A stretch of 64,000 nt of DNA, taken from Gammaproteobacteria bacterium (lineage in GTDB: Bacteria; Pseudomonadota; Gammaproteobacteria; Steroidobacterales; GCA-2729495). Under the pieces are notes generated by a model. It was given only the letters and a program-made list of their open reading frames with translations. It did no database searches and was not told where the DNA came from. The translations under genes and the position numbers were made by a program. Below are positions 25,025-44,821 of the stretch, piece by piece (position 1 is the stretch's first letter; each line of letters starts with the position of its first letter). The DNA is taken from positions 1 through 64,000 of the forward strand of contig JAQWPD010000044.1 in NCBI GenBank assembly GCA_029245525.1, in the 5' to 3' direction.

Positions 25025-25099
25025 GCTCCCTTCGTCTAGCGGTTAGGACACGGCCCTCTCAAGGCTGAAACACGAGTTCGATTCTCGTAGGGAGCACCA
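25025..25099 (+). tRNA. tRNA-Glu (anticodon CUC)
   Basis: A full cloverleaf: acceptor GCTCCCT pairs with AGGGAGC, D stem GTC/GAC, anticodon stem CGGCC/GGCTG with loop CTCTCAA (anticodon CTC), T stem ACGAG/CTCGT with loop TTCGATT, and an encoded ACCA end. The body resembles tRNA-Glu(UUC), including the CTTCGTCTAG start, but reads GAG only. It points toward the polyketide cluster that starts 39 bp downstream. Confidence 0.93.
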
Positions 25100-25137: not shown

Positions 25138-26367
25138 TTAATCCAATCGTTTAAATACCAACGACGTATTGATTCCGCCAAATGCGAAGTTATTTGACAT
25201 GACGTATTCACAAGAAATATTGCGGCCTTCTTTAACAATGTAATCAAGCTCCCCACACTCAGGATCAACATTATCAAGATTGATAGTCGGAGCAAACCAG
25301 CCTTCATGCATCATCTCAATTGCCAACCAGGCCTCAAGTGCGCCACATGCGCCGAGAGTATGACCCATGTAGCTCTTCATTGAACTGACCGGCGTGCTAC
25401 TGCCTAAAACCTCGTGGGTTGCAAGGCTTTCTGCAATATCGCCATGATCTGTCGCGGTACCATGTGTACTGATATAACCTATCTGGCTGGCATCAATGCC
25501 CGCATCATCTAATCCCTCAGCAATACAACGCGCCATGGTTTTCCGATTAGGACGTGTCACATGACTGCCGTCAGAATTGCTCGCGAAGCCAACCAACTCG
25601 CAAATAATCTTCGCGCCTCTGGCCTTCGCATACTCATATTCTTCAAGCACGAAGGTGCACGCCCCCTCGCCTAATACAAGGCCATCACGATCACGGTCAT
25701 AGGGACGCGGTGTCTTTTTGGGCTGGTCGTTCATCGTGCTGGTCGCATACAGCGTATCGAACACAGCCGCTTGAGTCGGGCAAAGCTCTTCGCCCCCACC
25801 TGCTAGCATAATATCCTGCTGCCCATAACGGATGGCTTCAAATGCATAGCCGATACCCTGACTGCCCGCCACACATGCTGTGCTCGTAGGAATAATCCGA
25901 CCCGTCAAACCAAAAAAAACGCCGATATTTACTACAGCCGTATGGCTCATCATGCGAACGTAACTCGTAGCATTTAGCCCATCGAGACTTTTATGCAACA
26001 ACATCTGACCAAACTCGGCAACGGCATCGGTGCTGCCTGCTGACGAACCATAAGATACGCCACATCTACCAGACTTAATAACGGGGTCATCCAGCAGGCC
26101 AGCCGACTGAAGCGCACGCTCACTGGCAGTGACCGCCATTTTCGAAACTCGACCCATGCTGCGAAGCTGCCGGCGCGTGTAGTGCTCCGGCACTTCAAAA
26201 CCGGTAACCGGCGAACCCAACGCGGTGTTTAAACCATCATATTCGTGCCAATGATCAAAAAACTGAACAGCATTACGATACTCGCCCAACTGCTTGCGGA
26301 TTGTTGGCCAATCCGAGCCCAGTGGCGATATTCCTGAAATAGCTGTTACTACTACCCTGCGAATCAT
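25138..26367 (-). CDS. Beta-ketoacyl-ACP synthase (ApeR-type)
   Basis: A 409-residue FabF/FabB-fold ketosynthase with an intact Cys-His-His triad: STACVAGSQ (Cys165), THGTATD (His302) and GHTLGACG (His336). It is the last gene of the minus-strand thioesterase-dehydratase-reductase block, directly adjoining the reductase gene (26368). In aryl polyene clusters the ketosynthase next to the P and Q genes is thought to act alone, early in elongation or in loading; that role is by analogy. Confidence 0.9.
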   Translation of the reverse strand: MIRRVVVTAISGISPLGSDWPTIRKQLGEYRNAVQFFDHWHEYDGLNTALGSPVTGFEVPEHYTRRQLRSMGRVSKMAVTASERALQSAGLLDDPVIKSGRCGVSYGSSAGSTDAVAEFGQMLLHKSLDGLNATSYVRMMSHTAVVNIGVFFGLTGRIIPTSTACVAGSQGIGYAFEAIRYGQQDIMLAGGGEELCPTQAAVFDTLYATSTMNDQPKKTPRPYDRDRDGLVLGEGACTFVLEEYEYAKARGAKIICELVGFASNSDGSHVTRPNRKTMARCIAEGLDDAGIDASQIGYISTHGTATDHGDIAESLATHEVLGSSTPVSSMKSYMGHTLGACGALEAWLAIEMMHEGWFAPTINLDNVDPECGELDYIVKEGRNISCEYVMSNNFAFGGINTSLVFKRLD

Positions 26368-27087
26368 TTAGCCGCTCAAGCCCCCGTCTACTGTCAAAAC
26401 CTGACGGGTAATATACGCTGCATCTTCAGAACATAGAAATGCAACAGCCTTGGCAACTTCTTCCGGCTGACCGAGACGCCGTGCCGGAATCATTTTTTTA
26501 AATTCATCGACAGCTAACTCGATAGTCATATCAGTTTCTATCAGCCCCGGCGCAACACAGTTGACTGTAATCTTACGTTTAGCCAACTCCAAAGCCAGCG
26601 ATTTTGCTGCACCAATCAAACCAGCCTTGGATGCACTGTAGTTAACCTGACCACGGTTACCGGTAATGCCAGCAACGGATGTTAGCACCACAATCCTCCC
26701 GGGCTTTCGCCTGCGCACCATAGGCATCACCAGCGGCTGAACAACATTAAAGAAACCGTCTAAATTAGTATGTATAACGGCATCCCATTCAATGCCTGTC
26801 ATTTGTGGAAACGAGGCATCTTTTGCGATACCGGCACTGCAAACCACGCCGTAATAAGCGCCATGCGCGTCAATGTCAGCATTCAGCGAATTGGCTACAG
26901 CCTCTCTCTGTGAAATATCAAACTGCAGCACACGTCCCACACCGGAACACTGCCGCAGCGTTTCTGCAGCACCTTCAGCATCACGCACATAGTGCACAAC
27001 AACCTGATAACCCTGCTGCGAGAGTTCAACAGCAACTGCCCTACCAATTCCGCGGCTTGCGCCCGTAACCAATACTGTTTCCAACAC
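26368..27087 (-). CDS. 3-ketoacyl-ACP reductase (FabG/ApeQ-type)
   Basis: A short-chain dehydrogenase that would reduce the beta-keto group each cycle. It shows TGASRGIG for NADPH binding and the YSASK catalytic motif, and ends like FabG with [11 protein letters not shown]. The GTG at 27087 is preferred because GGGAG (27092-27096) precedes it by four bases and it places the Rossmann strand near the N-terminus. An ATG at 27117 would add ten residues and lacks a Shine-Dalgarno site. Confidence 0.9.
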
Positions 27088-27129
27088 CAAACTCCCAACG
27101 TAAACGCCCTGCAACATAGTACCGTAAGA

Positions 27130-27603
27130 CTAAGCCGACAGACTCTCAAGAGACAAGTCGCCTCCGGGCTTTACATAAACCGATAAACGGGCAGAAATCT
27201 CAACACCCTCTCCAAATACCCGCCCTTCAAACGCACCTAAACCGTAGGTTGCAGCCACGTTTTCAACCACCTCCACTGTCAACTCAACACCCGATGGAAG
27301 ATATCCACAACTGGAATGGAATTTCTGACTCCCGATAAGCAAACCAAGCGGAATAGGTTCGCCACGTTCCATAGCATTGAGGCCGCCCAAAGCCGCAATG
27401 GCCTGAGCCATATATTCAATTGCTATCCAAGCAGGCACGCCATGTGGCGCCAAAAAGAAACTGCTATCCGCCGACACATGCACTGCTGCACAAAGCCGAT
27501 CCGGGTGATGGGATATCAGCGAATCCAACAGTAACATCGGGCCACGGTGCAACAGAGCATCTTCCAAAGACGCTCCCTCAACCGATATCGCATTTTCAAC
27601 CAT
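27130..27603 (-). CDS. Hot-dog 3-hydroxyacyl-ACP dehydratase (ApeP-type)
   Basis: A 157-residue single hot-dog protein of the FabA/FabZ superfamily that should remove water to form the conjugated double bonds. LLHRGPMLLLDSL matches the HRxPMLLVD-like start of the family, and PAWIAIEYMAQAIAALGG contains the conserved Glu of the central helix. The ATG at 27603 overlaps the end of the thioesterase gene (TATGGTTGA), giving coupled translation. Confidence 0.87.
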   Translation of the reverse strand: MVENAISVEGASLEDALLHRGPMLLLDSLISHHPDRLCAAVHVSADSSFFLAPHGVPAWIAIEYMAQAIAALGGLNAMERGEPIPLGLLIGSQKFHSSCGYLPSGVELTVEVVENVAATYGLGAFEGRVFGEGVEISARLSVYVKPGGDLSLESLSA

Positions 27604-28009
27604 ACGCGATGCCAAGACGATCAAACAGAACCTGTGGCGAACCCATACACATTTCTTCTGTTTCTTTATGGACTGCGACCTGAACAGTCATGCCCTTGGT
27701 GACCAAGTCACCCTCAGAATTATGAACCTGATACGATAATTTTAGGCGGTATTCATATTCTTCTAAACGCGCAGTTACCTGAATTTTTTCATCGAAGCCA
27801 ACTGTCTTTAAATAACGAATATTGGCGTCAATCACAGGCCATACGTGCCCTGCCTTTTCCATCTCTATGTAGCCATAATTGATCTTATCTAACAACACAC
27901 ACCGGGCTTCATCAAAATAGCGCAGGTAGTTGCCATGCCAAACCACACCCGCTGGGTCGCAATCGTGATACGCAACTAACACTTCAACGGTTGCTTCAAG
28001 CTCAATCAT
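27596..28009 (-). CDS. 4-hydroxybenzoyl-CoA-type thioesterase (ApeK-type)
   Basis: A 137-residue hot-dog thioesterase. YHDCDPAGVVWHGNYLRYF is the 4HBT active-site signature, with the Asp of CDPAG as nucleophile or base. It could clear stalled chains from the ACP or release product. The start at 28009 overlaps the glycosyltransferase stop (ATGA), and a longer start at 28024 is less likely. Confidence 0.88.
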   Translation of the reverse strand: MIELEATVEVLVAYHDCDPAGVVWHGNYLRYFDEARCVLLDKINYGYIEMEKAGHVWPVIDANIRYLKTVGFDEKIQVTARLEEYEYRLKLSYQVHNSEGDLVTKGMTVQVAVHKETEEMCMGSPQVLFDRLGIAYG

Positions 28010-28764
28010 ACAAATAACTTCCATAGCTTTCGGTAGAACAAAACAGGTGACAACACCAGCATACCTATGACCAGCTTAGTGTGCATTAAGGTGATCTGGG
28101 CATTATCCCTGAACATACGAAAGTGTGACAAACCCTGCTCCGGATACTCCACCTTAGTATCCATGAACTGCACCTCGCCGCCCGCCCACATCCAACGCAC
28201 TAGCGCTTCGAGATCAAACTGCATGCGCGCAGGCAATGGCACATAACGCACCACTCGCAACATCTTTTCGACCGGATAGATCCGGAACCCGCACATTGCG
28301 TCTTTAATCTCGGCGGAAAGCGTCTCAATGCGCAACAAAGCCAATGACAGCTTTCGTCCCTGCAATCGCGCCGCAGGAATATCGCCGCCAAAAGTGGGCC
28401 GCCCCGAAACCAATGCGTCTGGGAACTTTCTCGACACGGCAATCATAGGCTTTATATCGCTCGCCCGATGCTGGCCATCAGCATCAATCTGAACCACATG
28501 GGTATAGCCACGCTGCTTGGCTTCGGCGATACCCAACATCACAACAGAACCTTTGCCGCGATTCCTGGCAACCTGAACCAGCTCGAAACCCTGATAGCCT
28601 GCAACAATTCGGCTGACTTCAGCAATGCTCAATGGATCACTGCCATCATCTATGATCAATCCTGGCATGCCAGCTTCAGCCAGCAGTGGCATAAATCGCC
28701 TTAACTGCTCATGGTGGTTGTAGTGCGGAATCAGCAGACAATATTTTTCATGTATGCACGACAT
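28006..28764 (-). CDS. Family 2 glycosyltransferase
   Basis: A 252-residue GT2 enzyme. LLIPHYNH starts the nucleotide-sugar fold, DDGS follows, and VVQIDADGQH is the DxD-type metal site. The last segment near residues 232-248 is hydrophobic, so it may be membrane-associated. In E. coli-type aryl polyene clusters a GT2 domain is fused to an acyltransferase (ApeJ, from memory); here the LpxL-like acyltransferase is a separate gene at 35961. The donor and acceptor are unknown. Confidence 0.85.
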   Translation of the reverse strand: MSCIHEKYCLLIPHYNHHEQLRRFMPLLAEAGMPGLIIDDGSDPLSIAEVSRIVAGYQGFELVQVARNRGKGSVVMLGIAEAKQRGYTHVVQIDADGQHRASDIKPMIAVSRKFPDALVSGRPTFGGDIPAARLQGRKLSLALLRIETLSAEIKDAMCGFRIYPVEKMLRVVRYVPLPARMQFDLEALVRWMWAGGEVQFMDTKVEYPEQGLSHFRMFRDNAQITLMHTKLVIGMLVLSPVLFYRKLWKLFV

Positions 28765-28766
28765 AT

Positions 28767-29111
28767 TCAGGAAAAACTGCCTTCGGAATGGAGACCTAAG
28801 GATGAACTCAAACGATACGAAAAAACGCCGCCACTCTTTTTGAATATTTCATACTGCATATCTAATGGCGGCTGTGCAATCGTCTTAAACTTCACTCTGG
28901 GTGAGCTGTGAAATGTCTCGGTAGAAAAGCCAAGCTTGGCAGCCAGCAGCATAGCCCAATGCAATTGGACCACACCGGCAAGTATCGGAAGACCAGCAAA
29001 ATGACCCTCCAAAGATGGGTTATCAGCATCCAGCCGGAAAACGCAACGCATATAGTCTGCATTGATTTCCTGCTCTGTCATTATTGGCAACACGCCTATT
29101 TGATTTGCCAC
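28767..29111 (-). CDS. Small hot-dog dehydratase (ApeI-type)
   Basis: A 114-residue hot-dog protein with GHFAGLPILAGVVQLHW, the FabZ/ApeI signature with its active His. With the ApeP-type protein it would form the dehydratase. It starts 11 bases after the membrane-protein gene stop and ends two bases before the glycosyltransferase start. An in-frame ATG at residue 11 (MTEQEINADY) is a possible later start. Confidence 0.85.
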   Translation of the reverse strand: MANQIGVLPIMTEQEINADYMRCVFRLDADNPSLEGHFAGLPILAGVVQLHWAMLLAAKLGFSTETFHSSPRVKFKTIAQPPLDMQYEIFKKSGGVFSYRLSSSLGLHSEGSFS

Positions 29112-29122
29112 AACGATGGTCT

Positions 29123-29725
29123 TTATGAGATCCCATGACGGCGTCGATAACGCTGCCTATAAAAATATTCACTGACCAGCAATAGACCAATAAGCAGATA
29201 GGAAATACATCCGTTATATAAAGCCCAGTAACTGGTCACCCCAAACCAGGCAAGAATAGCTGATATCAGCGCATTGATGGCAAAAAAGGCACACCAGATA
29301 AGCGTTAATGCCCGCATATAGGGTATCGCCTGCGATGGAATATCCATTTTAGCTGCGCGGGAAAAACGCTCGATCATCGATGGTGGCCGGGCAACCGTGA
29401 ACGCAAACGCACACATCAAAGCAATGCTCATCATGGTTGGATACAGCATCAACAATCGCACACTTTGAGACGCATAAAGCACCACAAAAAATATCGCCAC
29501 AACAACTGCACTTAGGGCAAGTAATAACGGTTGCTTGCGCACTAATGGCACGATACGGAGCAACAACAAAACAGCAAGCAATGCTGCTAGGCTTGACAAG
29601 CCATAGCTATCCAGAAGGTAATAGACGGCAACCGGATACACCACCAAAGCAATGGCGAATAGAAAACCAAACAAACGAGAAATAAAATGCTGACTCACTT
29701 TAAGCGGCTCAGCTGCGAGTCTCAA
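29123..29725 (-). CDS. COG4648-like membrane protein (ApeG-type)
   Basis: A 200-residue protein with about five or six membrane helices. PPSMIERFSRAAKMDIP and the aromatic WALYNGCISYLLIG segment match the predicted membrane proteins that accompany the ACP in aryl polyene and related acyl-lipid clusters. Its biochemical role is not established. It overlaps the preceding ACP gene by four bases (ATGA). Confidence 0.8.
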   Translation of the reverse strand: MRLAAEPLKVSQHFISRLFGFLFAIALVVYPVAVYYLLDSYGLSSLAALLAVLLLLRIVPLVRKQPLLLALSAVVVAIFFVVLYASQSVRLLMLYPTMMSIALMCAFAFTVARPPSMIERFSRAAKMDIPSQAIPYMRALTLIWCAFFAINALISAILAWFGVTSYWALYNGCISYLLIGLLLVSEYFYRQRYRRRHGIS

Positions 29726-29958
29726 AGAGCATCCAAAACTTTGACAACATCGCCAATAGTGCGAACAGCCTTGAAGTCATCCGGCGGCACTCTCTTGCCG
29801 GTTTCTTCCTTCAAACGAACAATTAGATCAACCGCATCGATGCTGTCGAGGTCCAGCGATTCATAAAGCTGGGCATCGGATGTTACCGCCTCTGCAGAAA
29901 CATCAAAGTCTGCCACCAGAATACGCCGCAATAGTTTGAAATTATTACTGTCCATCAC
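29722..29958 (-). CDS. Acyl carrier protein
   Basis: A 78-residue ACP. The phosphopantetheine site is Ser in LDLDSIDAVDLI, and helix III follows the usual DDFKAVRTIGDVV pattern. It heads the minus-strand block that runs to the ketosynthase at 25138. A 153-bp interval upstream has no gene and may hold its promoter. Confidence 0.93.
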   Translation of the reverse strand: MMDSNNFKLLRRILVADFDVSAEAVTSDAQLYESLDLDSIDAVDLIVRLKEETGKRVPPDDFKAVRTIGDVVKVLDAL

Positions 29959-30111
29959 ACCTTTTGAGCACGAAGTCTCGCAACCTCTGCCTATCGCTAT
30001 TTAAATAGAGCAATGCGTTCGCTGCTTTCCGTGGCGAACCCGTGTTGCTGAGTATATCAGCGAGTAAACGCAGAATGCATAGCCAGCAGTTATTTTCGCT
30101 ACCATAAGGCA

Positions 30112-30924
30112 TCACGCCCTGTACTCTGCCATTAGCGCGTCACCAAACCACGCTTCCAAATACTGATTAAACCTGCGGGACGCCATGCGCGGCCCCAGGT
30201 CTTCGAGTAATTCAGGATCCACCCGCATTGTAGGCTTTACAGCCAACCGCATTATAACTTGCTCCGAGGGCACAGAGTACCAAGGGTCAGACTTGGTCAA
30301 CGTTGTCGGTGATACATCAATGAGCACCGGAAGAATATCGCAATCTGCCCGCACAGCAATAGTTGCTGCGCCAGCTTTAAAGTCCAGTGGTCGGCCGGGA
30401 GCGGTGCGGGTTCCTTCAGGAAACAGAATAAGTGTGTTCGCCCGCTGTAACGATTCAACGCAACGGGTCAAAAGAAGCTCCGGGTCTGCATTTGAAATAT
30501 AGTCAGCACTTCGCATCATAAGGTGAGTAAAAGGGTTAACCCAAAGAGCACGCTTTACGACACATTGCGACTCTGGGTACATCGCCAGCAAAAAAATAAC
30601 GTCAATTAATGACGGGTGGTTCGCTAAAATCAATAATGGACCCTGAATATCATGCCGCTTATAGCCGCTGATTTCGTAATCAAGAACCCCCAAAGTCCGC
30701 ATCAACCAGACAAACAGTTGACACAAGTGGCCAACCTGTCGCCGCAGTGCGCGCTGCACTTCCGCAGTCTTACCCCATTGGGTAACTGACGCGATGATAG
30801 CAATAGGCAGAATTAAAGCACCCATCAGCAACGCGCCGAGGCCGAAAGCGCCGAAACTGATAGCCGTAGCCAGCCATCGCCAACAATGATTTAAGAACTG
30901 CAGCAAAAAAAACACCCCATTCAA
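30112..30924 (-). CDS. PlsC-like 1-acylglycerol-3-phosphate acyltransferase (ApeD-type)
   Basis: A 270-residue membrane acyltransferase with N-terminal hydrophobic helices. The HX4D catalytic motif is NHPSLIDV and the glycerol phosphate-binding motif is FPEGTR. In aryl polyene clusters this protein probably helps join the polyene to a lipid. It is divergent from the ketosynthase gene at 31059. Confidence 0.87.
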   Translation of the reverse strand: MNGVFFLLQFLNHCWRWLATAISFGAFGLGALLMGALILPIAIIASVTQWGKTAEVQRALRRQVGHLCQLFVWLMRTLGVLDYEISGYKRHDIQGPLLILANHPSLIDVIFLLAMYPESQCVVKRALWVNPFTHLMMRSADYISNADPELLLTRCVESLQRANTLILFPEGTRTAPGRPLDFKAGAATIAVRADCDILPVLIDVSPTTLTKSDPWYSVPSEQVIMRLAVKPTMRVDPELLEDLGPRMASRRFNQYLEAWFGDALMAEYRA

Positions 30925-31058
30925 CGCCGGGCACGGTACCCGCGTATTGTGCCTATCGTTCCCCCGGGTCTTGAAACAGGACTGCGACGGTGAAATAGTA
31001 CCACCCCCATACAGTTGATTCGTTAACTATTGTTTTCCAAACCAACCGGCAGCGCACA

Positions 31059-32252
31059 TTGTATTCCAATTGTTTCATATCCTCCTACACACTCACATGC
31101 AGCGCGGGCATCGGGCTGGCAGCGATCCGGAACTCTGTTCGTAATAACTTGAGCGGACTGAGCGATAAAGGCTGGCCGGATAGTGATGTAGAGACCTGGC
31201 TCGGGATGGTCGATCAAGGCTCACTGAACCGCATTGCACTTACGCACAAATGGCTAAGTCGCAACAATCAGCTTGCCCTGCTGGCAATGACTCAGGATAA
31301 CTTCCTCGCAGCAGCTCGGGAACAGATTAGCCGATTCGGGCCACAGCGCGTTGGCGTAATACTCGGCACCAGCACTTCAAGCATTGGCCGCACTGAAGAG
31401 GCTTATTGCCACTTAAGCTACACGGATGAGTTCACCGCAGAGTATATGCAACCGGAAATTAATACACCGCATTCGACCGGCGCCTTCATCGCTAACTATC
31501 TAGGCATAACAGGCCCTGCAATAACCATTAGCACCGCCTGCTCATCGAGCGCGAAAGCATTCGCAAGCGGCGCGCGCTGGCTCGAGGCCGGCCTGGTTGA
31601 TTCCGTCATCATTGGTGGCGTCGACACGCTGTGCCTGAGCGTCATTTATGGATTTAACTCTCTGCAACTCGTCTCAAGCGAAGCCTGTAAACCCTTCGAC
31701 CAGTTCCGCACAGGAATAAGTCTCGGCGAAGCCGGCGGCTTCGCCATTCTGAATAAAGACTCAAAAAATGCACAAGCAGCATTATTAGGCTATGGCGAAA
31801 GTACTGATGCATGGCATATGTCGACGCCCCATCCTGAAGGACTCGGCGCGAAGCTTTCGATGCAGCAGGCATTAGATCGTGCATCATGTGAGGCTTATGA
31901 TATTGACTACGTCAATCTTCATGGCACCGGCACCCGTGCAAATGACGATATCGAAGGTCTTGCCTGCCAGACGCTATTCGCCGATGCGCTGGCGGACACC
32001 TATGTCAGCGCAACAAAGGGGCTCACTGGCCATACACTCGGCGCAGCAGGCATCACCGAAGCAATTTTAGCTATTGAAAGCATTAAAACCGGCATCGTGC
32101 CAGGCACAACCAATACGACTCAGCCCGAAACAGTGATGCGTGAACACCTGGTGCTAACCAGTACGGAAGCCGCGATAGGCAAAGCCATGAGCAATTCTTT
32201 CGGTTTTGGCGGAAATAACTGCACCCTTATTTTCGGAGATGCAGGAGAATGA
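31059..32252 (+). CDS. Beta-ketoacyl-ACP synthase (ApeO-type)
   Basis: A 397-residue ketosynthase with the complete triad: STACSSSAK (Cys161), LHGTGT (His288) and KGLTGHTLGAAG (Lys320, His325). It overlaps the chain-length-factor-like gene by four bases (ATGA), as expected for a heterodimeric type II ketosynthase pair. The only plausible start is TTG at 31059; there is no in-frame ATG before the first beta-strand and no clear Shine-Dalgarno site, so the N-terminus is uncertain. Confidence 0.9.
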   Translation: MYSNCFISSYTLTCSAGIGLAAIRNSVRNNLSGLSDKGWPDSDVETWLGMVDQGSLNRIALTHKWLSRNNQLALLAMTQDNFLAAAREQISRFGPQRVGVILGTSTSSIGRTEEAYCHLSYTDEFTAEYMQPEINTPHSTGAFIANYLGITGPAITISTACSSSAKAFASGARWLEAGLVDSVIIGGVDTLCLSVIYGFNSLQLVSSEACKPFDQFRTGISLGEAGGFAILNKDSKNAQAALLGYGESTDAWHMSTPHPEGLGAKLSMQQALDRASCEAYDIDYVNLHGTGTRANDDIEGLACQTLFADALADTYVSATKGLTGHTLGAAGITEAILAIESIKTGIVPGTTNTTQPETVMREHLVLTSTEAAIGKAMSNSFGFGGNNCTLIFGDAGE

Positions 32253-33052
32253 AACTCTATGTATCAGGCATCGGTATCTGGTCGGATCTTGCACAAGACT
32301 GGGAGCAACTTAAAACCGCTTTGGCCGAAAATTCCAATACGAACCCGGCCGGCGTCCCCCTATCCAAACTCATTCCCGGGGCAGAGCGGAGGCGTGCGCC
32401 TAAAACGGCGAAGCTGGCAGTCGAAGTGGCCGAGCAAGCATGCCGTATGGCCAAAGCTGACATGAGCGACACGGCATCTGTGTTTACCTCGGTACTTGCT
32501 GACACCGAAATCTCAGACAACATCTGTCGGGCACTAGCGCTGCCACAAAAAATATTATCGCCAACAAAGTTTCACAACTCAGTACAAAATGCCCCTGCAG
32601 GTTACTGGGCAATAGGAAGCGGTAATCATGCACCGTGCAATTATGTCGGCGGCTTTATGGAAAGCTGGGCCTTAGCACTTATAGAAGCGGCAAGCCAATG
32701 CCTTATCGAGCAACGGAATGTATTATTGGTGAACTACGATATCGCCAACAAAGCGCCTCTCTCTGGGGTGTGCCGAATTGATGAAAGCTTCGCCAGTGCA
32801 CTGCTACTGCAAGCGACCTGCACACACCAAGACAGCGTAGAGCTCAAACTTGAATTGTGTGCTGGTAGCAATCCTCAGCCTATCGCCCATAGCCTATCTG
32901 CGCAAACACTATGCCGCAGAAACCCAAGTGCTGCCGTGCTGGCACAACTTGAAGTATTTGCGATGAAAACTGACGAACAAAATGCAACAGAGTTACGTTG
33001 GCCAATAAATTCTGATGCCCATTTACGGATCAGGAGTCGAGGCTCACTGTGA
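32249..33052 (+). CDS. Ketosynthase-like chain length factor (ApeC-type)
   Basis: A 267-residue protein like the N-terminal thiolase half of a ketosynthase (Ketoacyl-synt_2 family). FHNSVQNAPAGYWAIG is the family's hallmark, and the active Cys position is occupied by a non-catalytic GGFMESWALAL segment. No HGTGT or GHTLG motif is present, so it cannot condense by itself. It is expected to pair with the ketosynthase encoded just upstream and to limit chain length. Confidence 0.82.
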   Translation: MKLYVSGIGIWSDLAQDWEQLKTALAENSNTNPAGVPLSKLIPGAERRRAPKTAKLAVEVAEQACRMAKADMSDTASVFTSVLADTEISDNICRALALPQKILSPTKFHNSVQNAPAGYWAIGSGNHAPCNYVGGFMESWALALIEAASQCLIEQRNVLLVNYDIANKAPLSGVCRIDESFASALLLQATCTHQDSVELKLELCAGSNPQPIAHSLSAQTLCRRNPSAAVLAQLEVFAMKTDEQNATELRWPINSDAHLRIRSRGSL

Positions 33053-33065
33053 CAGCTGCCATGAC

Positions 33066-35324: not shown

Positions 35325-35334
35325 GGCCAGGCTC

Positions 35335-35964
35335 TCAAAGCCGTGGTGCCTCAGCTACCGAAAAGCTCAGGCGCTGCCAACGTTTTGGTCCTTGATCAAT
35401 GAAAATTTCAGTAATCTCATCGGCTGTTGCGGACACATTCATCTCCAGCACATAGCGGCGTAAATACTTATTTTTGGGCTTACAGATCAACGTCCAGCTA
35501 TCTCCATCATGCTCAATTGCGACAACATACAACTCGTCAATCGTATTAATGTCGCCTTCAAGAATGGCACGCAAGCTACGGAAAAAGTCGTACAGTCCCT
35601 GATCTTTAGTAATCGAGAACTCTCGCGTTTTATCAACTCGCTCCACCCGCACCAAATTATTGCCGATTGTAATCGTTTCCTGAAATGGCTCGATAACACG
35701 TTTTATCAACTCACCCTGACCACTAAAGACAATATCTCCAGTAATTTTCAGCGGCTCACGCAAACGGCTAGCCATCCGGTATTCGGTGTATGTCCGTGGC
35801 TCATCACGTCGCACATCCAGGCTGGAAAGAATCTTCACAAGCTCCAGATCAGAAGCTACCGATTGAGCACAAGCGGAGGCCATAGAAAGAGCCAAAAAGA
35901 CACAGCAAAAAAATCGCCTCACTCCAAAGCCGGCTGTATTCAACTTACACAATAAGACTTTCAT
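35335..35964 (-). CDS. LolA-like periplasmic carrier (ApeL-type)
   Basis: A 209-residue secreted protein. A signal peptide (about residues 1-34, ending CAQSVA or nearby) is followed by an open-barrel LolA-related domain with FIDQGPKRWQRLSF at the end. It is expected to ferry the product across the periplasm. The ATG overlaps the acyltransferase stop by four bases. Confidence 0.82.
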   Translation of the reverse strand: MKVLLCKLNTAGFGVRRFFCCVFLALSMASACAQSVASDLELVKILSSLDVRRDEPRTYTEYRMASRLREPLKITGDIVFSGQGELIKRVIEPFQETITIGNNLVRVERVDKTREFSITKDQGLYDFFRSLRAILEGDINTIDELYVVAIEHDGDSWTLICKPKNKYLRRYVLEMNVSATADEITEIFIDQGPKRWQRLSFSVAEAPRL

Positions 35965-36845
35965 ATAAAATAATCGTAAAAATTAAACCAGTTGTCGGGA
36001 GCCCTTTTTACATATTTCTCCAAACAATCCATATAACGTTGTGCGAACAGTCGTATGTCTTGTTGACGATCCTTGCGGGATGTCTTCAGACCCGTTGTAA
36101 GAACCTCGCAATGTACGTCATAGCCACCATCAACGAAGACTGGGAAGATCGCAATCACGGGGGCCTTAAAAGCCGCTGCCACCATGAACGGTCCGGCCGG
36201 CAACCTGGCCTTACCATCAAGGAAGTCAACTTCAATCACACGATCACTCTCAAACACCCGATCAGCAAGAAAGCCTACCCACTGTGACTCACGCATTGCT
36301 GCTGCAATCTCTACACCAAGCGAGGCCGCCGATTGATGGGGACTAATGATCGAGCGGATAAATTCCGGATCAATTTCGGCCATTCGTCGCATAAAATTAG
36401 GGTTAATTTCATCATCAACTACGATCCTCATTTGTACCTGAGGATGCTCAACTGCGACCATGCGCGCCGCCTCAAATGAACCAAAATGTGCCGCTAAAAA
36501 AACCCCACCCTGAGCATCCTGCACAAGATCAACCAATGGCTCAGTGCCAAAGAAACGTATCCGGATATTGCTGGCGCGACCCGACATGATGAATATTCGA
36601 TCGGCAGTCACCCGAGCGAAAGTCATGAATTGGGCGAATACTTCATGCCATTTTGGCTTGCGTTGATAAACACGGGACAGAAAACGCTGTGATGCGTGAC
36701 GCTCATCGGCTCGAACCAAAACAAAGTACAACACCACCGGATACAGCAATACAAATACTGCTGCCCTGCCAAAAGTAATCGCAAAAAGCTCCATGAAGCG
36801 AAGTGCCCACATGGAGCCTGCCTCAGGTCGCTTACGCCAGCCCAC
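35961..36845 (-). CDS. LpxL/HtrB-like acyltransferase
   Basis: A 294-residue inner-membrane acyltransferase of the lipid A late-acyltransferase type. An N-terminal helix is followed by LAAHFGSFEA, the HX4E catalytic motif, and a later VGFLADRVFESDR segment. It is separate here from the glycosyltransferase at 28006, whereas the two are fused in some aryl polyene clusters. Its start overlaps the AMP-ligase gene by 14 bases. Confidence 0.83.
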   Translation of the reverse strand: MGWRKRPEAGSMWALRFMELFAITFGRAAVFVLLYPVVLYFVLVRADERHASQRFLSRVYQRKPKWHEVFAQFMTFARVTADRIFIMSGRASNIRIRFFGTEPLVDLVQDAQGGVFLAAHFGSFEAARMVAVEHPQVQMRIVVDDEINPNFMRRMAEIDPEFIRSIISPHQSAASLGVEIAAAMRESQWVGFLADRVFESDRVIEVDFLDGKARLPAGPFMVAAAFKAPVIAIFPVFVDGGYDVHCEVLTTGLKTSRKDRQQDIRLFAQRYMDCLEKYVKRAPDNWFNFYDYFI

Positions 36846-38247
36846 TAACTTCGCCCTGTGTTTTTCCTGGTTCCACAGGAATCCCCTCAGCCTGCAACAA
36901 GATCTGCAGCGCCGCTTGTTTTAGCTTGCCCGTCTCGTCGCGAGGCAATGCATCAATCTGACAGACTCTGCGCGGCAAAAAACTCTGCTCAATTAGGCCT
37001 GCCAACGCTTTTTCAACGGCGGCAGCATCTCCATCCTGCAGAACCACCAATATAAGCAAACGGCCGGCTTCAGTCTGGGGCGGTAAAACGACACCATCAA
37101 CAACGCTGTCCAGAGACAGCAGTGTGGCATTCAAATCTGCCAGAGAGGCCCTTTTCCCGGCCACTTTAATCAGATCCGAATCACGACCCACTATTGAGAA
37201 ATCGCCGTTCTCAGAAAAGCATAATTCATCCGCAAGCTTCACAGGATGAGCAAGATGAGGCGCGGACAAAATGGCTGCGCCGTCTTCCTCAATCATAGTG
37301 AACTCAGGAAAACGCCTAAAATACTGCTGCCATTCGGCAGCAACTGACAAACGGCAGGCAAATGATCCGGCTTCGCTACAACCATAAATCTCAAGCAATT
37401 CCCCATGAATTGAATCAAGCAAACCCATCGCCAAACTATCATTTAATGGTGCTGTAGCTGACAACAGATGTCTAACCAGAGAGATATCCATACCCGAGCG
37501 ATACAGAGCCCGCAAATGGTGCGGCGTGGATACAAAGTAGTTGTCGGCTCCGACAAGTTTTAGAGCAGCGATAACGTCACCGGGAAACAGTGTCGAACCA
37601 GAAAATATCGCAATATTAGAAACACAGGATACTAGCAAAGACCACTCCAGCCCATACATATGCCAGGGCGGTGCCGTCGATACAATTGCTGGATTAGAGC
37701 CTAATGATAACGACTCATGCAATACACGGCTGTTGATCTTTGCACCAGCAAACAAGCTGTCCACCGTCTTCTCTATAGACTGTGCGATACCGGTGGTGCC
37801 AGAGGTATAAACGATTGCAGCCAATTGATCGGCAGGCAATAACGGAACTCCAACGTTACCCGAGCACTGCTTGACTCCGGACATGTCAAAAACGGGCAAA
37901 GGACACTCATTGAATGCGGCTGAAGTCACAACATAGGCCTCAGGAAACTGCCGTGCAGCACCCTTAAGTAGACCCACTTGATGACCCGGCAATAGGACAT
38001 TGCATTGGCCTCGAAGCAAAACAGCAAAAAAAGTTACTGCAAACTGATAACGATCCTCGCAATAATTTATCGCATACGGCTTATCGGGAAGGCTCTCTGC
38101 AAGCGCAGTCACATGAGATAAAAAATCTCCAGCAGAAACCTGTCCTTTTGCGGTCAGAAACATAGGCCGGTGCATTGCCCGGTCTAACATTAAGTGAGTT
38201 GCTGAATTCAAGACTGGCCTCCGGGCCAAACTCGACAAACCCGACAA
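36832..38247 (-). CDS. Acyl-CoA synthetase-like AMP ligase (ApeH-type)
   Basis: A 471-residue ANL-superfamily ligase, expected to activate the hydroxybenzoate starter and load it on an ACP. The AMP-binding loop is AIVYTSGTTG, and a later DLIKVAGKR segment is the hinge region. The C-terminal Lys motif is ETGKLKQ. It starts 15 bp after the ACP gene and forms an operon with the acyltransferase, carrier and exporter. Confidence 0.88.
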   Translation of the reverse strand: MSGLSSLARRPVLNSATHLMLDRAMHRPMFLTAKGQVSAGDFLSHVTALAESLPDKPYAINYCEDRYQFAVTFFAVLLRGQCNVLLPGHQVGLLKGAARQFPEAYVVTSAAFNECPLPVFDMSGVKQCSGNVGVPLLPADQLAAIVYTSGTTGIAQSIEKTVDSLFAGAKINSRVLHESLSLGSNPAIVSTAPPWHMYGLEWSLLVSCVSNIAIFSGSTLFPGDVIAALKLVGADNYFVSTPHHLRALYRSGMDISLVRHLLSATAPLNDSLAMGLLDSIHGELLEIYGCSEAGSFACRLSVAAEWQQYFRRFPEFTMIEEDGAAILSAPHLAHPVKLADELCFSENGDFSIVGRDSDLIKVAGKRASLADLNATLLSLDSVVDGVVLPPQTEAGRLLILVVLQDGDAAAVEKALAGLIEQSFLPRRVCQIDALPRDETGKLKQAALQILLQAEGIPVEPGKTQGEVSGLA

Positions 38248-38262
38248 ACAGGTTTGCTGAGC

Positions 38263-38532
38263 TCAACCAGCGACAGTCTGCTGGCCGATAAATGCAGATA
38301 AGCTTCGCAAAGTACGAAAAACCTCTTTGGTTTCTTCGTCTTCGGCCTTTATATGAACGCCATAATTCTGGGACACTGCCACAGCGATTTCGAGGGCATC
38401 AATAGAATCAAGCCCTAAACCATCATCGAATAGGTTGTCTTCCGGCTCAATATTGTCAGCAGTAACGTCTTCAAGATTCAACACTTCTACAATTAGTTCT
38501 GCCAATTTTTGTTCTTCTACCGATTTTTCCAC
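38263..38532 (-). CDS. Second acyl carrier protein
   Basis: An 89-residue ACP with the phosphopantetheine Ser in GLGLDSIDALEIAV. It heads the minus-strand operon ACP-ligase-acyltransferase-LolA-like-exporter. It is adjacent to the ligase gene, so it may be the starter-loading ACP. It is divergent from the halogenase gene, and the 116 bp between them should contain both promoters. Confidence 0.93.
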   Translation of the reverse strand: MEKSVEEQKLAELIVEVLNLEDVTADNIEPEDNLFDDGLGLDSIDALEIAVAVSQNYGVHIKAEDEETKEVFRTLRSLSAFIGQQTVAG

Positions 38533-38648
38533 GCTTAAGCCCCACTTCCTTAGCCTATGGTCAGATTGATCTGTTTAAAACATCCGGTGCATGAATATTC
38601 ACGCAATGCCCTATTTTGAGCAAACCGCGGTTCAAGTACAATGGCGTC

Positions 38649-39947
38649 ATGAACATTGAAGCTCAAACCGCACCAGTCGGCAACAACACTCAAACCAGGG
38701 ATGTCATAGTGATCGGTGGCGGGCCCGCTGGCACAACTGTGGCAACATTACTTGCACAAAAAGGCTGGCAAGTCACTCTATTTGAAAAAGAAACACACCC
38801 ACGCTTTCATATCGGCGAATCACTCCTGCCAATGAACTTGCCTATCTTTGAGCATCTGGGCGTACTCGACCAAGTCGCCGCTGCTGGCATCAAAAAAAAT
38901 GCAGCCGTTTTTACCAGCCCAACGATCAAAGCCAAGCCCACCCGCTTCCCATTCGCAAATGCTCTGGCTGACTCACCACCTCATGCCTATCAAATTGAGC
39001 GCTCCAAGCTCGATAAAATACTGTTCGACAACAGCCATGCCAACGGTGTGCAAACTCTCGAGCAGCATGAGGTTATTGCCATATCTCTAGTGAAAAACGG
39101 TACACATAAACTGCAAGTTCGTGGTCCTGACAACAACATTCGTGCGTGGCAATGCCGCTATGTGCTGGACGCATCCGGACAACAGTCGCTCATATCCAAA
39201 CAGCAAAAGTGGAGGCTGCCGAACTCTCGACACTCGGCTTCTGCAGTTTTCGCCCACTTTTCCGGTATTCCGCTTAATGAGGGTGATGGCTCTGGAGATA
39301 TCAACGTGTATTGGTTTGCTCAGGGCTGGATGTGGTTTATACCCCTTGGCGACGACCTTATGAGCATAGGGATTGTCGCAAGCCCTGACTACCTGAAAAC
39401 GCGCAAGCCAACAGAATCATTATGTGACTTTCTTAGCAACACCGTGAACAAGTCGTTTGCAGCCCGTAAACGATTTAAAAACGGAACACAGCTGTTCCCT
39501 GCAAAAGCAGTATCGAATTATTCGTACACATCCAGTCAACGCAGTGGCGCAGGGTTCGCTCTTATCGGTGATGCACATACTTTCATTGATCCGGTATTTT
39601 CGAGCGGTGTATATCTGGCAATGTCAGGTGCAGAACGAGTGGTGCCGTTAGTCGACCATTGGTTGCGGGGAAATAGGCTAAGGTACGCCATTACACGCAA
39701 TCGCTACGAGCACACAATGACGCGAGCAGTAAAGGCATTCAGCTGGTTTATATACCGTTTTACAACGCCTCAAATGGAGTATTTATTCCAGAACCCGCGC
39801 AATATATTGGGTGTAGAGCAGGCGGTAGTGTCAATGCTTGCCGGCGATGTGTATAAACGTAACTCGGTACATCTGCGATTGCTCGTATTTAAGTTCATCT
39901 TCTTTATGGCTGGTATTTTCGGGCCAGCCAAACGGCAAAAAAGCTAA
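38649..39947 (+). CDS. Flavin-dependent halogenase-like enzyme
   Basis: A 432-residue FAD enzyme. VIGGGPAGTT (21-30) binds FAD, then RFHIGESLLP. Halogenase hallmarks are present: WMWFIP (W227, W229, I231, P232) fits WxWxIP, and FIDPVFSSG (312-320) fits the Fx.Px.Sx.G tunnel motif. Lys83 in IKKNAAVF aligns by eye with the catalytic Lys of phenolic halogenases. It is predicted to halogenate the aryl ring or polyene. The first ATG at 38649 is used; a TTG at 38616 would add 11 residues. It starts the three-gene block with the chorismatase and radical SAM genes. Confidence 0.85.
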   Translation: MNIEAQTAPVGNNTQTRDVIVIGGGPAGTTVATLLAQKGWQVTLFEKETHPRFHIGESLLPMNLPIFEHLGVLDQVAAAGIKKNAAVFTSPTIKAKPTRFPFANALADSPPHAYQIERSKLDKILFDNSHANGVQTLEQHEVIAISLVKNGTHKLQVRGPDNNIRAWQCRYVLDASGQQSLISKQQKWRLPNSRHSASAVFAHFSGIPLNEGDGSGDINVYWFAQGWMWFIPLGDDLMSIGIVASPDYLKTRKPTESLCDFLSNTVNKSFAARKRFKNGTQLFPAKAVSNYSYTSSQRSGAGFALIGDAHTFIDPVFSSGVYLAMSGAERVVPLVDHWLRGNRLRYAITRNRYEHTMTRAVKAFSWFIYRFTTPQMEYLFQNPRNILGVEQAVVSMLAGDVYKRNSVHLRLLVFKFIFFMAGIFGPAKRQKS

Positions 39948-39950
39948 CAC

Positions 39951-40997
39951 ATGTCAATAGCGGCTAAAAAAACCCCATCGTGTTCTGAGCTCACTGTCCG
40001 CTTAGACAAGACAGATGGCTCAAACGAAACTAACGCGCTTTTCCGCTTTTGTTTTGGTCGAGACTTGTCCGAGCAATCTGCTGACGGCACAGTGAATATC
40101 CCCATACCTCTTCAGGTACTAGGCAACGGGGCCAAGTTCGAAGTTTGGGAAACCAGCGAACCCGTGCACAGCGGCAGAATAGCTAACAACATGTTTTTTG
40201 CTGCCAGTACATCGTGGCTGATGATTCACACTACAGTCCTTATCGATGACACTAGCGACCTAAGTTCACTAACTCATGATATCTACAACAACATGCTGAA
40301 TGAGGTGGTCCAGCGCAACTATGAAGACATAGTTCGCACCTGGAATTACATTCCTGAAATTAACAAAGGTGATGGCGACAGTGAGCGCTACCGACAGTTT
40401 TCTCTAGGTCGCTCGATTGCCTTCGAGTCACACAACTGCAACATTGAAACACTCCCTGCTGGAACAGCCATCGGCAGTGTTGCAGGAACGCAGTTGGGTA
40501 TTACGATACTCGCCGCCAAGAGCAGCAACATCCGGGTCGAGAATCCGCGTCAAATGAGCGCCTTTCAATATCCTCGCCAATACGGGCCCCGCAGCCCTTC
40601 ATTCGCACGCGCTGTATTATTAAGCCAGTGTGAGCTTCCCGTTCTGCTTGTATCGGGGACTGCGAGCATACTAGGGCATGAAAGCGTGCACACCAGTAAA
40701 TTAATCAATCAGGCCGAAGAAACAACACGTAACATTGTTAGTCTGCGCGACGCCGCCCTGAAACAATCCGGCACGGCTGAGAGCTTCTCAGCAGGATGCC
40801 TGCGCATCTATGTCCGCGATAAAGCCGACTTCCCCATAGCTGTCGACAGCCTGAAAGAGTTACTCCATAACCGGGATGGCAGCAAGCCCGACTATATCGT
40901 GCTGCTCGGCGATATCTGCCGAACCGACTTGCTGGTAGAAGTTGAGGCGGTCTATCAAGCAAGGCCTCCGCTTGCAGACAATATCGCACTGGCTTAA
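39951..40997 (+). CDS. Chorismatase (FkbO/Hyg5/XanB2-like)
   Basis: A 348-residue enzyme that should convert chorismate to a hydroxybenzoate. Segments WNYIPEIN (131-138), ERYRQFSLGRS, ENPRQMSAFQYPRQYGPRSP (197-216) and SGTASILGHES (235-245) are diagnostic of this family of two YjgF-like domains. Family members make 3-hydroxybenzoate, 4-hydroxybenzoate or dihydroxycyclohexadienoate; the subtype cannot be fixed by eye. Three bases separate it from the halogenase gene. XanB2 supplies the xanthomonadin starter in Xanthomonas, so the same role is inferred. Confidence 0.88.
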   Translation: MSIAAKKTPSCSELTVRLDKTDGSNETNALFRFCFGRDLSEQSADGTVNIPIPLQVLGNGAKFEVWETSEPVHSGRIANNMFFAASTSWLMIHTTVLIDDTSDLSSLTHDIYNNMLNEVVQRNYEDIVRTWNYIPEINKGDGDSERYRQFSLGRSIAFESHNCNIETLPAGTAIGSVAGTQLGITILAAKSSNIRVENPRQMSAFQYPRQYGPRSPSFARAVLLSQCELPVLLVSGTASILGHESVHTSKLINQAEETTRNIVSLRDAALKQSGTAESFSAGCLRIYVRDKADFPIAVDSLKELLHNRDGSKPDYIVLLGDICRTDLLVEVEAVYQARPPLADNIALA

Positions 40998-41012
40998 CGA
41001 GGCAAAGGATTC

Positions 41013-42332
41013 GTGAAAATCGCTTTTATCTCTGGTAATAGGGAAAAACTTCCTGATGCAGTAGTGCCTATCGGACTCCTGTACATCATGGCCAACACCC
41101 CCGATTGCCATGACAAAGAGCTGATTGATCTGTGCTTTGTCGACGACCCTGACGCACACCTGAAAGAAACACTCGGCAAAATGAGCCCGGATGTTGTGGC
41201 ACTGGGAATGCGCAATATCCAGAACAATGATTATTCCGGCATGGAAGACAATCTCAATTACTACGCTGATTTAATCGTTACCATTCGCAAAAGCTGTTCT
41301 GCATCTGTGGTTCTTGGGGGCTCAGGCTTTAGTGTCATGCCCAAAGAATTAATGGCTCGACTCAAACCCGATTACGGCATTTCCGGTGAAGGCGAACAGG
41401 CGTTTCCAAAGCTGCTGAAGGCTCTCGAAACCGGAGAAGGCATCAACGCAATCGGGGCGCTGCATCGATATATCGATGGTCAGATACTATCAAGCCCGCG
41501 ACCACCCGAGTTTCTGGACATGAACACGCTGATACCGCCAGACCGGTCACTTGCGGCGCACACGTATTACCAGAGCTTCGGTGTCGACTCTATCCAAACC
41601 AAACGTGGCTGTCCGCTAAGGTGCGACTATTGCACCTACCCCATCATTGAAGGCAGGGTTGGGCGCACCCGCGACCCGGTGGCCGTTGTCGATGAAATGT
41701 TTGCTGCGGCAAATGACTGCCCTGATATCAATCACTTTTTTATCGTTGACTCAGTATTTAATCTACCTAAAACTCACGCTAAGAAAGTTTGTCGCGAACT
41801 AATAAAGCGCAACTGGACGATTCCATGGACCTGCTATGCCAACCCATTGGGTTTTGATACAGAGTTTGCCGAACTGGCGAAGGCAGCGGGCTGTGCTGGC
41901 ATGGAAGTCGGATCAGACTCAGGGGTAAACCATGTGCTAAAAAAAATGCACAAAGGCTTTACCACCGATCACATCCGAAAGCTGCACAACACATGTGAAA
42001 CAACCGGCATTCCTGATTGCCACACATTCATTATCGGTACTGAGGGCGAAACTATCGAGGATGTGCAACAGACGCTGGATTTCATTGCTGACCTCGATCC
42101 ATTCAGCGTATTTATCATGATCTGGATCGATGATTTCGAAGCGTTGGATCCTGGCTATCGGGCAGAGCGAATGGCATTCCGAAAGGATATCGAAGTCTTG
42201 CTGGAAGCGAACAAAGACAAGTTCCCAACCTGGTCGGTTCCGGCGCTGAAAATCAATTTCAATGAGCGACTGTTTGCGGCACTGCGCAAATCCGGCAGGC
42301 ACGGTCCTCTTTGGCAACACATAAGGGGCTAG
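41013..42332 (+). CDS. Cobalamin-binding-type radical SAM enzyme
   Basis: A 439-residue protein with an N-terminal B12-binding-like Rossmann domain (residues about 1-150, ending GISGEGEQAFPKLL) and a radical SAM barrel with CPLRCDYC (Cys200, Cys204, Cys207). The canonical DxHxxG cobalamin motif is not seen, which is common in this superfamily. Members often methylate unactivated carbons. The start is GTG at 41013. In the pigment cluster it could methylate the ring or chain; that is inference. No cobalamin riboswitch was recognised upstream. Confidence 0.85.
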   Translation: MKIAFISGNREKLPDAVVPIGLLYIMANTPDCHDKELIDLCFVDDPDAHLKETLGKMSPDVVALGMRNIQNNDYSGMEDNLNYYADLIVTIRKSCSASVVLGGSGFSVMPKELMARLKPDYGISGEGEQAFPKLLKALETGEGINAIGALHRYIDGQILSSPRPPEFLDMNTLIPPDRSLAAHTYYQSFGVDSIQTKRGCPLRCDYCTYPIIEGRVGRTRDPVAVVDEMFAAANDCPDINHFFIVDSVFNLPKTHAKKVCRELIKRNWTIPWTCYANPLGFDTEFAELAKAAGCAGMEVGSDSGVNHVLKKMHKGFTTDHIRKLHNTCETTGIPDCHTFIIGTEGETIEDVQQTLDFIADLDPFSVFIMIWIDDFEALDPGYRAERMAFRKDIEVLLEANKDKFPTWSVPALKINFNERLFAALRKSGRHGPLWQHIRG

Positions 42333-44819: not shown

Positions 44820-44821
44820 GC

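Follow-up and report, generated by a model that had tools for sequence, protein, structure and literature searches.

What would a cobalamin-type radical S-adenosylmethionine (SAM) enzyme do in a gene cluster for an aryl polyene (APE) pigment? The question is raised by a stretch of 64,000 nucleotides from a gammaproteobacterial genome (GCA_029245525.1, contig JAQWPD010000044.1, positions 1 to 64,000; "the window" hereafter), the source genome being 2.28 Mb in 123 contigs with a completeness of 98%. Open reading frame (ORF) calls and family profile searches confirmed 19 genes at 25138-42332 where a preliminary description had located them, with an APE core, a halogenase-like gene, a chorismatase gene and a cobalamin-type radical SAM gene. 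Sixteen of the 19 belonged to the core, which held counterparts for 15 of the 18 ape genes of E. coli CFT073; the other three formed a co-directional right-hand block with gaps of 3 and 15 nt:

38649..39947, + strand: flavin-dependent halogenase-like enzyme, called the flavoprotein below (Trp_halogenase, 4.1e-29; TTG start at 38616, ATG at 38649)
39951..40997, + strand: chorismatase of the FkbO/Hyg5 type, predicted to form 3-hydroxybenzoate (TIGR04444, 1.9e-58, 198 bits, below the cut-off of 325)
41013..42332, + strand: cobalamin-type radical SAM protein (rSAM below) with a TsrM-like predicted fold, predicted head-group C-methylase (Radical_SAM, 2.4e-18; CX3CX2C at 200)

On balance we favour the prediction that rSAM is a B12-dependent C-methylase acting on the ring of a hydroxybenzoate-derived head group, a prediction supported by its place as third gene in the tight flavoprotein-chorismatase-rSAM run; in the best reading it either does the job of the E. 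coli methyltransferase ApeB or adds a second methyl group. The extra C-methyl group, which the preliminary description had expected in the product alongside a rearranged group as the alternative, remains the best prediction from sequence and structure model. Published accounts are cited below by PMC number, and what is said of them refers to the parts of each text that were available.

Family, predicted fold and key residues of the radical SAM protein

The closest NCBIfam family to rSAM was TIGR04072, "lipid biosynthesis B12-binding/radical SAM protein" (7.3e-80, 268.7 bits; cut-off 360), the match spanning 1-359 of 443 model positions. Three close relatives scored 249-276 bits on the same model, likewise under the cut-off. 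The Pfam B12-binding match was weak (29 bits; cut-off 32.1), the DxHxxG motif was absent from the protein, and the putative B12 domain is assigned on TIGR04072 and the TsrM-like predicted fold.

The structure model (from A1, an alignment of 40 rows; no cofactors included) had a mean pLDDT of 93.5 and a pTM of 0.91, and TsrM was its best fold match (Foldseek E 3e-31), superposing by VIA-align with Z 36.6 and a root mean square deviation of 2.6 A over 433 of 439 residues at 28% identity. MgmA (Z 31.0), AprD4 (30.9) and OxsB (28.7) came next. Methylation by TsrM takes place at an aromatic carbon and involves no radical, a route that has been called atypical; Arg69 keeps the lower cobalt face free, and Glu273 sits on the cluster iron (PMC8992657, PMC13331322). 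Loss of this arginine in TsrM is reported to block methyl transfer onto the substrate while cobalamin is still methylated (PMC8992657). Arg69 corresponded to Arg67 in rSAM, kept in 40 of 40 rows (a correspondence drawn from aligned sequences and not from a model with cofactors), and in the model Arg67 comes after strand three, the place that Arg69 has in TsrM. The kept arginine is consistent with heterolytic methyl transfer of the TsrM kind to a nucleophilic aromatic carbon. Glu273 was replaced by Val248 (V in 36 rows, I in 2, T in 2, no Glu).

With the glutamate lost, the cluster iron is free for SAM and a radical route stays open, so rSAM might be a non-methylating B12 radical SAM catalyst that rearranges, cyclises or oxidises the head group. 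Val248 would permit 5'-deoxyadenosyl radical chemistry, the BchE and AprD4 models also matched rSAM (86.8 and 78.4 bits), and AprD4 and OxsB were close folds; however, BchE, AprD4 and OxsB all score below TsrM, by sequence and by fold, and methyl transfer fills a known gap because ApeB is missing in the window. We regard non-methylating chemistry as quite unlikely.

In a midpoint-rooted tree of 56 rows, 31 close rSAM proteins were set apart by a branch supported at 100/99 and recovered in 100% of 200 bootstrap trees, and nine proteins over the TIGR04072 cut-off formed a separate group, again with 100/99 and in all bootstrap trees. The 31 rows leave out L011 (internal stop) and G697 (cut gene) and include L002 and L077 (identical with L015); L141 repeats L093. 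Membership of rSAM in TIGR04072 was rejected on these grounds, its score being below 360 and its place outside the over-cut-off group. The window protein grouped with rows titled Planctomycetota, and most of the other rows around them came from the Myxococcota sample, a placement that points to acquisition by transfer. A second rSAM lineage of the same order (G382, G348, G461) stood elsewhere in the close group.

A contig scan with the rSAM protein returned 14 loci: two at 95-96% identity, in Chromatiales records (the nearest titled relative being JABIQA010000038.1, "Chromatiales bacterium isolate SI072_bin130", 96% identical), and twelve at 53-67%, in records titled Planctomycetota, Myxococcota, Myxococcales, Deltaproteobacteria, Woeseiaceae, Gammaproteobacteria and Proteobacteria. 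In genome samples, rSAM was found in 4 of 274 genomes of the class at 1e-60 (its own and three that were only 32-36% identical), 6 of 196 of the order and 5 of 40 of the family, the own genome being counted in each. The phylum of G472 gave 2 of 294 (one of them G472) and the phylum of G470 gave 25 of 282 at 1e-90, a rate that may be inflated, since 7 of the 25 were already known from the contig scan; two members of this positive set, G669 and G711 (38-41% identical), fall outside the close group.

The family name of TIGR04072 bears on what the substrate might be. Kuste2803, a candidate for ladderane biosynthesis, presumably belongs to that family. This anammox B12/SAM protein has been suggested as an enzyme that might cyclise polyunsaturated chains (PMC2649909), and rSAM, too, could act on the polyene chain, methylating or cyclising the conjugated acyl carrier protein (ACP)-bound intermediate and not the ring. 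The TIGR04072 match and the frequent presence of rSAM beside APE genes without a chorismatase speak for a chain substrate; against it, rSAM lies outside the over-cut-off TIGR04072 group and below that cut-off, a chorismatase-rSAM pair occurs without a polyene core in one genome (G348, below), and the fold and the kept arginine point to an aromatic-carbon methylase, though the arginine is common to TIGR04072 relatives. We consider action on the chain unlikely. More speculative still, and a long shot in our view, is a version in which rSAM closes rings or branches the ACP-bound aryl polyene, giving carbocyclic or ladder-like pigments instead of straight ones in three phyla; just as improbably, the rSAM group would then be a relative, of its own kind, of the B12/radical SAM enzymes of ladderane clusters. 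If true, ring closure would offer a tractable model for ladderane biosynthesis.

Genomic company of the radical SAM gene

The contexts of 31 rSAM loci, one per genome, were counted with proteins of the window, L046, L053, L043 and CFT073 as queries; the set excludes the partial gene of G628 as well as two congeners, G414 and G451, and differs from the set of 31 close tree rows. Three or more APE gene types were present at 13 of the 31 loci (13 of the 22 of at least 12 kb, 0 of the 9 shorter ones) vs. 1 of 13 control stretches, which were hand-picked and not random: L119-L122, two window flanks, L116 (a locus of G194 with a chorismatase), and two sets with more distant rSAM genes, L050-L052 and L108-L110. 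The single control stretch that reached three types was L110. For the long loci the difference (13/22 vs. 1/13) gave p 0.004. Records of three phyla, Myxococcota, Planctomycetota and Gammaproteobacteria, showed the linkage of rSAM to APE genes. A chorismatase lay within 1.1 kb of rSAM, measured between match ends, at 8 of the 31 loci (the window, L043, L044, L045, L006, L007, L094 and L101), and within the order the pairing occurred in two separate rSAM lineages, whose chorismatases were only 36-40% identical.

Co-occurrence was counted in the 282 genomes of the G470 phylum, with a chorismatase limit of E 1e-15 and with PF13723 as the ApeC family. Chorismatase was present in 6 of 25 rSAM-positive vs. 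1 of 257 rSAM-negative genomes (p 1.8e-6) and PF13723 in 17 of 25 vs. 71 of 257 (p 1.3e-4); among PF13723-positive genomes, chorismatase was present in 5 of 17 vs. 0 of 71 (p 1.6e-4). Without the seven contig-scan genomes the p values were 9e-4, 1.0e-3 and 2.4e-3, respectively. A weak chorismatase match in G474 (4e-11) fell short of the limit and was uncounted.

Two genomes separate the chorismatase-rSAM pair from the polyene core. In G348 the pair stands beside a 121-residue C-terminal piece of an ApeR-type ketosynthase (66% to that of the window), inside a contig of 147 kb; no PF13723 protein was found in this genome (completeness given as 100), an absence that is weak evidence in drafts, as the congeners G414 and G451, which carry at least part of the cluster, gave no match either, in G414 because the contig (L048) breaks off within the gene before it. 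In G461 the distance from the pair to the PF13723 gene is about 340 kb. A constant linkage of the pair to the polyene core was ruled out by these two genomes. The pair might therefore belong to a separate pathway (e.g. to a quinone-like or free phenolic product) that merely adjoins the APE genes. The rSAM-APE linkage in three phyla and the PF13723 counts given above argue against this, and pigment pathways in two loci exist, as in arcuflavin (PMC3949708); we hold a separate pathway to be very unlikely. G348, a single case, reads as a locus where the pair outlived the polyene core, and so speaks more for an aromatic substrate than for the polyene.

One locus, L004, carries both putative methylating enzymes: an ORF 9 nt after rSAM encodes an ApeB homologue (46% over 352 aa; FlxJ family, 431 bits, cut-off 560), the only one in the 47 context stretches searched. 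As another head-group gene in this position it supports ring methylation, and the two enzymes perhaps perform two methylations; rSAM as a strict replacement of ApeB was rejected, L004 having both.

Several points weigh against ring methylation as we propose it. The TsrM model itself, TIGR04428, gave 140 bits with a cut-off of 500, and the best sequence family carries a lipid-biosynthesis name. The Arg-Asn at 67-68 also occurs in seven more distant rows of A1, TIGR04072-type relatives, so that Arg67 is not special to the rSAM group, and the change of Glu273 to Val248 means that the TsrM mechanism is not simply inherited. In L004 rSAM and ApeB stand side by side and can thus coexist, which argues against plain replacement. 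Nine of the 22 long rSAM loci fell short of three APE gene types, and in some (L009, L012) 20 kb of sequence contained none. In the G470 phylum, 19 of the 25 rSAM-positive genomes lacked a chorismatase at E 1e-15, so the substrate does not have to come from a chorismatase. The co-occurrence tests make no correction for common descent; the six chorismatase-positive genomes fall in about four rSAM lineages.

Other genes were seen near rSAM or its analogues. In G378 (L046, L118), a related APE cluster keeps the chorismatase and the flavoprotein (51%) and has a different B12-type radical SAM gene (31%; L046 17308-18897) beside a ketosynthase; no NCBIfam model reaches its cut-off with this protein, which was apparently a separate recruitment of such an enzyme. 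Four stretches resembling this second type stand beside a chorismatase in L115 (G478). Six loci of the G470 phylum (L096, L097, L099, L102, L103, L111) had a second, larger flavoprotein like L046 7288-8880 near rSAM, adjoining a ketoreductase in five of them. Alpha/beta hydrolase-like proteins, possibly serving product release or attachment, were found near rSAM in L006 (11340-12662) and L098 (14207-15571).

Chorismatase, flavoprotein and a proposed route

The residues diagnostic of CH-II chorismatases are Gly164, Gly231 and Cys318 of Nat-hyg5 (PMC7170507). In an alignment from which the L006 row was left out, the window chorismatase kept Gly240, Cys327 and the catalytic Glu334 of Hyg5; two of the three diagnostic residues were present (Gly, Cys), the third being Ala, and the Ala of FkbO at the last two CH-II places was not seen. 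With this partial set, neither a CH-II nor a CH-III (XanB2) placement was adopted. The enzyme is predicted from these residues to form 3-hydroxybenzoate.

The flavoprotein probably halogenates the pigment. Its closest PDB chains were the halogenases 3e1t, which we take to be CndH (9e-45), and CmlS (4.9e-43), and most of the top chains were halogenases, the third being a flavoprotein of no assigned function. Such halogenases typically act on carrier-bound substrates. All three motifs of flavin-dependent halogenases (PMC7336383) were present: GxGxxG (34), WxWxIP (238) and Fx.Px.Sx.G (323). Neither of the top two NCBIfam matches reached its cut-off, the best being the CmlS halogenase (183.7 bits; cut-off 900) and the second QhpG, a flavin monooxygenase (133.4 bits; cut-off 240). 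The QhpG match would suit a hydroxylase or other flavin oxidase and a pigment without halogen, which we judge distinctly less probable, since the better NCBIfam match, most of the top PDB chains and the complete motif set all indicate a halogenase.

For substrate, timing, methyl transfer and halogen we infer the following route. The chorismatase would make 3-hydroxybenzoate, possibly also 4-hydroxybenzoate, from chorismate, and an ApeH-like ligase would load it onto an ApeE-like ACP. The polyene would be built by ApeO/ApeC, ketoreductase and dehydratase, and the electron-rich phenol ring would be halogenated (or hydroxylated) by the flavoprotein. Methyl transfer by rSAM, from methylcobalamin to a ring carbon, would be the job of ApeB in E. 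coli; ApeB-type head-group methyltransferases are not universal in APE clusters. Acyltransferases and a glycosyltransferase would attach the polyene to lipid, and MMPL and LolA proteins may carry the product to the outer membrane.

The aryl polyene core, its flanks and described pigment clusters

The comparison with the E. coli APE cluster, advised in the preliminary description, was run by blastp against the 18 ape genes of CFT073, together with Pfam families. Counterparts of 13 were found by blastp (ApeD, E, F, G, H, I, J, K, M, O, P, Q and R), and those of ApeL and ApeC were recognised by Pfam family only, with no blastp match at 0.1. ApeA, ApeB and ApeN had no credible match within the window, where tblastn with ApeB gave at best 25% over 36 aa (E 0.84; window only searched). 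The components expected of an APE cluster were present (a ketosynthase pair with an ApeC-type chain length factor, ketoreductase, dehydratase, two ACPs and a ligase), as was a set for lipid attachment and export (acyltransferases, LolA and an MMPL exporter). The ApeJ counterpart was split in two genes, 28006..28764 and 35961..36845. The 16 core genes were:

25138..26367, - strand: ApeR-like ketosynthase of FabF type (ketoacyl-synt, 1.8e-32; 59% to CFT073 ApeR over 407 aa; NF006587, 705 bits, cut-off 470)
26368..27117, - strand: ApeQ-like ketoreductase (adh_short_C2, 1.1e-56; 57.5% to ApeQ)
27130..27624, - strand: ApeP-like dehydratase (ApeP-like, 3.6e-11; 32% to ApeP)
27596..28024, - strand: ApeK-like thioesterase (4HBT_2, 1.8e-13; 45% to ApeK)
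28006..28764, - strand: family 2 glycosyltransferase, a separate N-terminal half of ApeJ (Glycos_transf_2, 1.2e-10; 42% to ApeJ residues 8-242)
28767..29111, - strand: weak ApeI-like dehydratase (ApeI-like, 3.1e-4, 21.5 bits, below the cut-off of 28.5; 38% over 60 aa, 7e-4)
29123..29725, - strand: ApeG-like protein without a Pfam match (31% to ApeG, 1.4e-18)
29722..29958, - strand: ApeF-like ACP (PP-binding, 1.6e-12; DSI motif; 46% to ApeF)
30112..30924, - strand: ApeD-like lysophospholipid acyltransferase (Acyltransferase, 3e-18; 44% to ApeD)
31059..32252, + strand: ApeO-like ketosynthase (Ketoacyl-synt_C, 5.5e-28; 38% to ApeO; active-site Cys motif TACSS)
32249..33052, + strand: ApeC-like chain length factor (Ketoacyl-synt_2, PF13723, 3.2e-20; no ketosynthase active-site motif)
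33066..35324, - strand: ApeM-like MMPL/RND exporter (MMPL, 3.7e-7; 26% to ApeM)
35335..35964, - strand: ApeL-like LolA-type carrier (LolA_3, 1.3e-13)
35961..36845, - strand: LpxL-type acyltransferase, the C-terminal half of ApeJ (Lip_A_acyltrans, 2.1e-17; 29% to ApeJ residues 250-549)
36832..38247, - strand: ApeH-like aryl acid:ACP ligase (AMP-binding, 2.7e-15; 26% to ApeH)
38263..38532, - strand: ApeE-like ACP (NF006617, 105 bits, cut-off 70; 49% to ApeE)

Eight of the 19 cluster genes were compared with those of congeners (L048, L002, L014) in nine comparisons and showed 87-96% amino-acid identity with a ratio of non-synonymous to synonymous substitution rates (dN/dS) of 0.06-0.15; the tested genes are therefore under purifying selection and are not chance ORFs. 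Both flanks were conserved: pcnB on the left (94% in L048) and, on the right, 43020-45544 (+), which starts with a CopA-type copper resistance multicopper oxidase (TIGR01480, 850.6 bits, cut-off 479; 96% in L002). A protein at 44765-45544, after CopA, had no NCBIfam match and was also conserved in L002; that it is CopB-like is a guess. A tRNA gene at 25025-25096 (+; 63 bits), between pcnB and the left end of the cluster, was the sole match in an Rfam scan of the window, with no cobalamin riboswitch at the gathering threshold; it is a possible integration edge, yet pcnB adjoins the cluster in L048 too.

The cluster is almost certainly an APE cluster of the xanthomonadin/arcuflavin type. The Xanthomonas and Azoarcus clusters were compared with it by published gene content, not by sequence. 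The arcuflavin genes of Azoarcus sp. BH72 combine a polyene core with the halogenase arcA, the chorismatase arcB (giving 3- and 4-hydroxybenzoate) and arcM, annotated as a methyltransferase, and share with the window an AMP ligase, LolA, an exporter and acyltransferases. They differ in arcM and a DAR partner, where the window has rSAM and no ApeB-type methyltransferase, and in lying in two loci, the window cluster being in one piece; no radical SAM gene appears in the gene table as far as it is covered (PMC3949708). Xanthomonadin clusters (Xanthomonas and a Lysobacter relative) have a 3-hydroxybenzoate starter supplied by a chorismatase of the XanB2 type (xanB2), a halogenase (in Xanthomonas) and a pair of ketosynthase and chain length factor, and no radical SAM gene is mentioned in the available part of that account (PMC3691225). 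The CFT073 cluster differs in its 4-hydroxybenzoate starter and in ApeA, ApeN and ApeB, a SAM-dependent methyltransferase to which methylation of the aromatic head group is ascribed (PMC8253772), and has no chorismatase, halogenase or rSAM among its 18 ape genes.

TsrM (PDB 6WTE/6WTF; PMC8992657) shares with rSAM the predicted fold over 433 residues, CX3CX2C and the arginine under the cobalt (Arg69); it differs in its low identity, its iron-blocking glutamate and its length (575 vs. 439 residues). If ring methylation is true, rSAM would be a natural variant, with the arginine of TsrM kept and the glutamate lost, that would let the role of the glutamate be tested. TIGR04072 is the nearest curated family and shares the Arg-Asn at 67-68, but lies on the other side of a well-supported branch and is matched below its cut-off.

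No described APE cluster with this rSAM subfamily was found in the literature covered, which mostly excludes subscription journals; the available parts of PMC9902471, PMC8549736 and PMC10456417 describe no such combination. If the prediction holds, a cobalamin-dependent C-methylase for a phenolic starter or head group would have been recruited into a very widespread pigment family, in three phyla, and the chorismatase-rSAM pair is small and experimentally tractable in E. coli. The preliminary description had known of no described cluster with the whole gene set and had taken the right-hand block as an addition bringing a starter route, halogenation and a radical SAM enzyme. The chorismatase starter route, the halogenase-like flavoprotein and rSAM are all there, though rSAM is not confined to this cluster, and the claim of novelty narrows to one gene: the APE core with chorismatase and halogenase is not new, having been described for arcuflavin (PMC3949708) and xanthomonadin (PMC3691225), and the new part is the cobalamin-type rSAM gene at 41013-42332 with its conserved subfamily.

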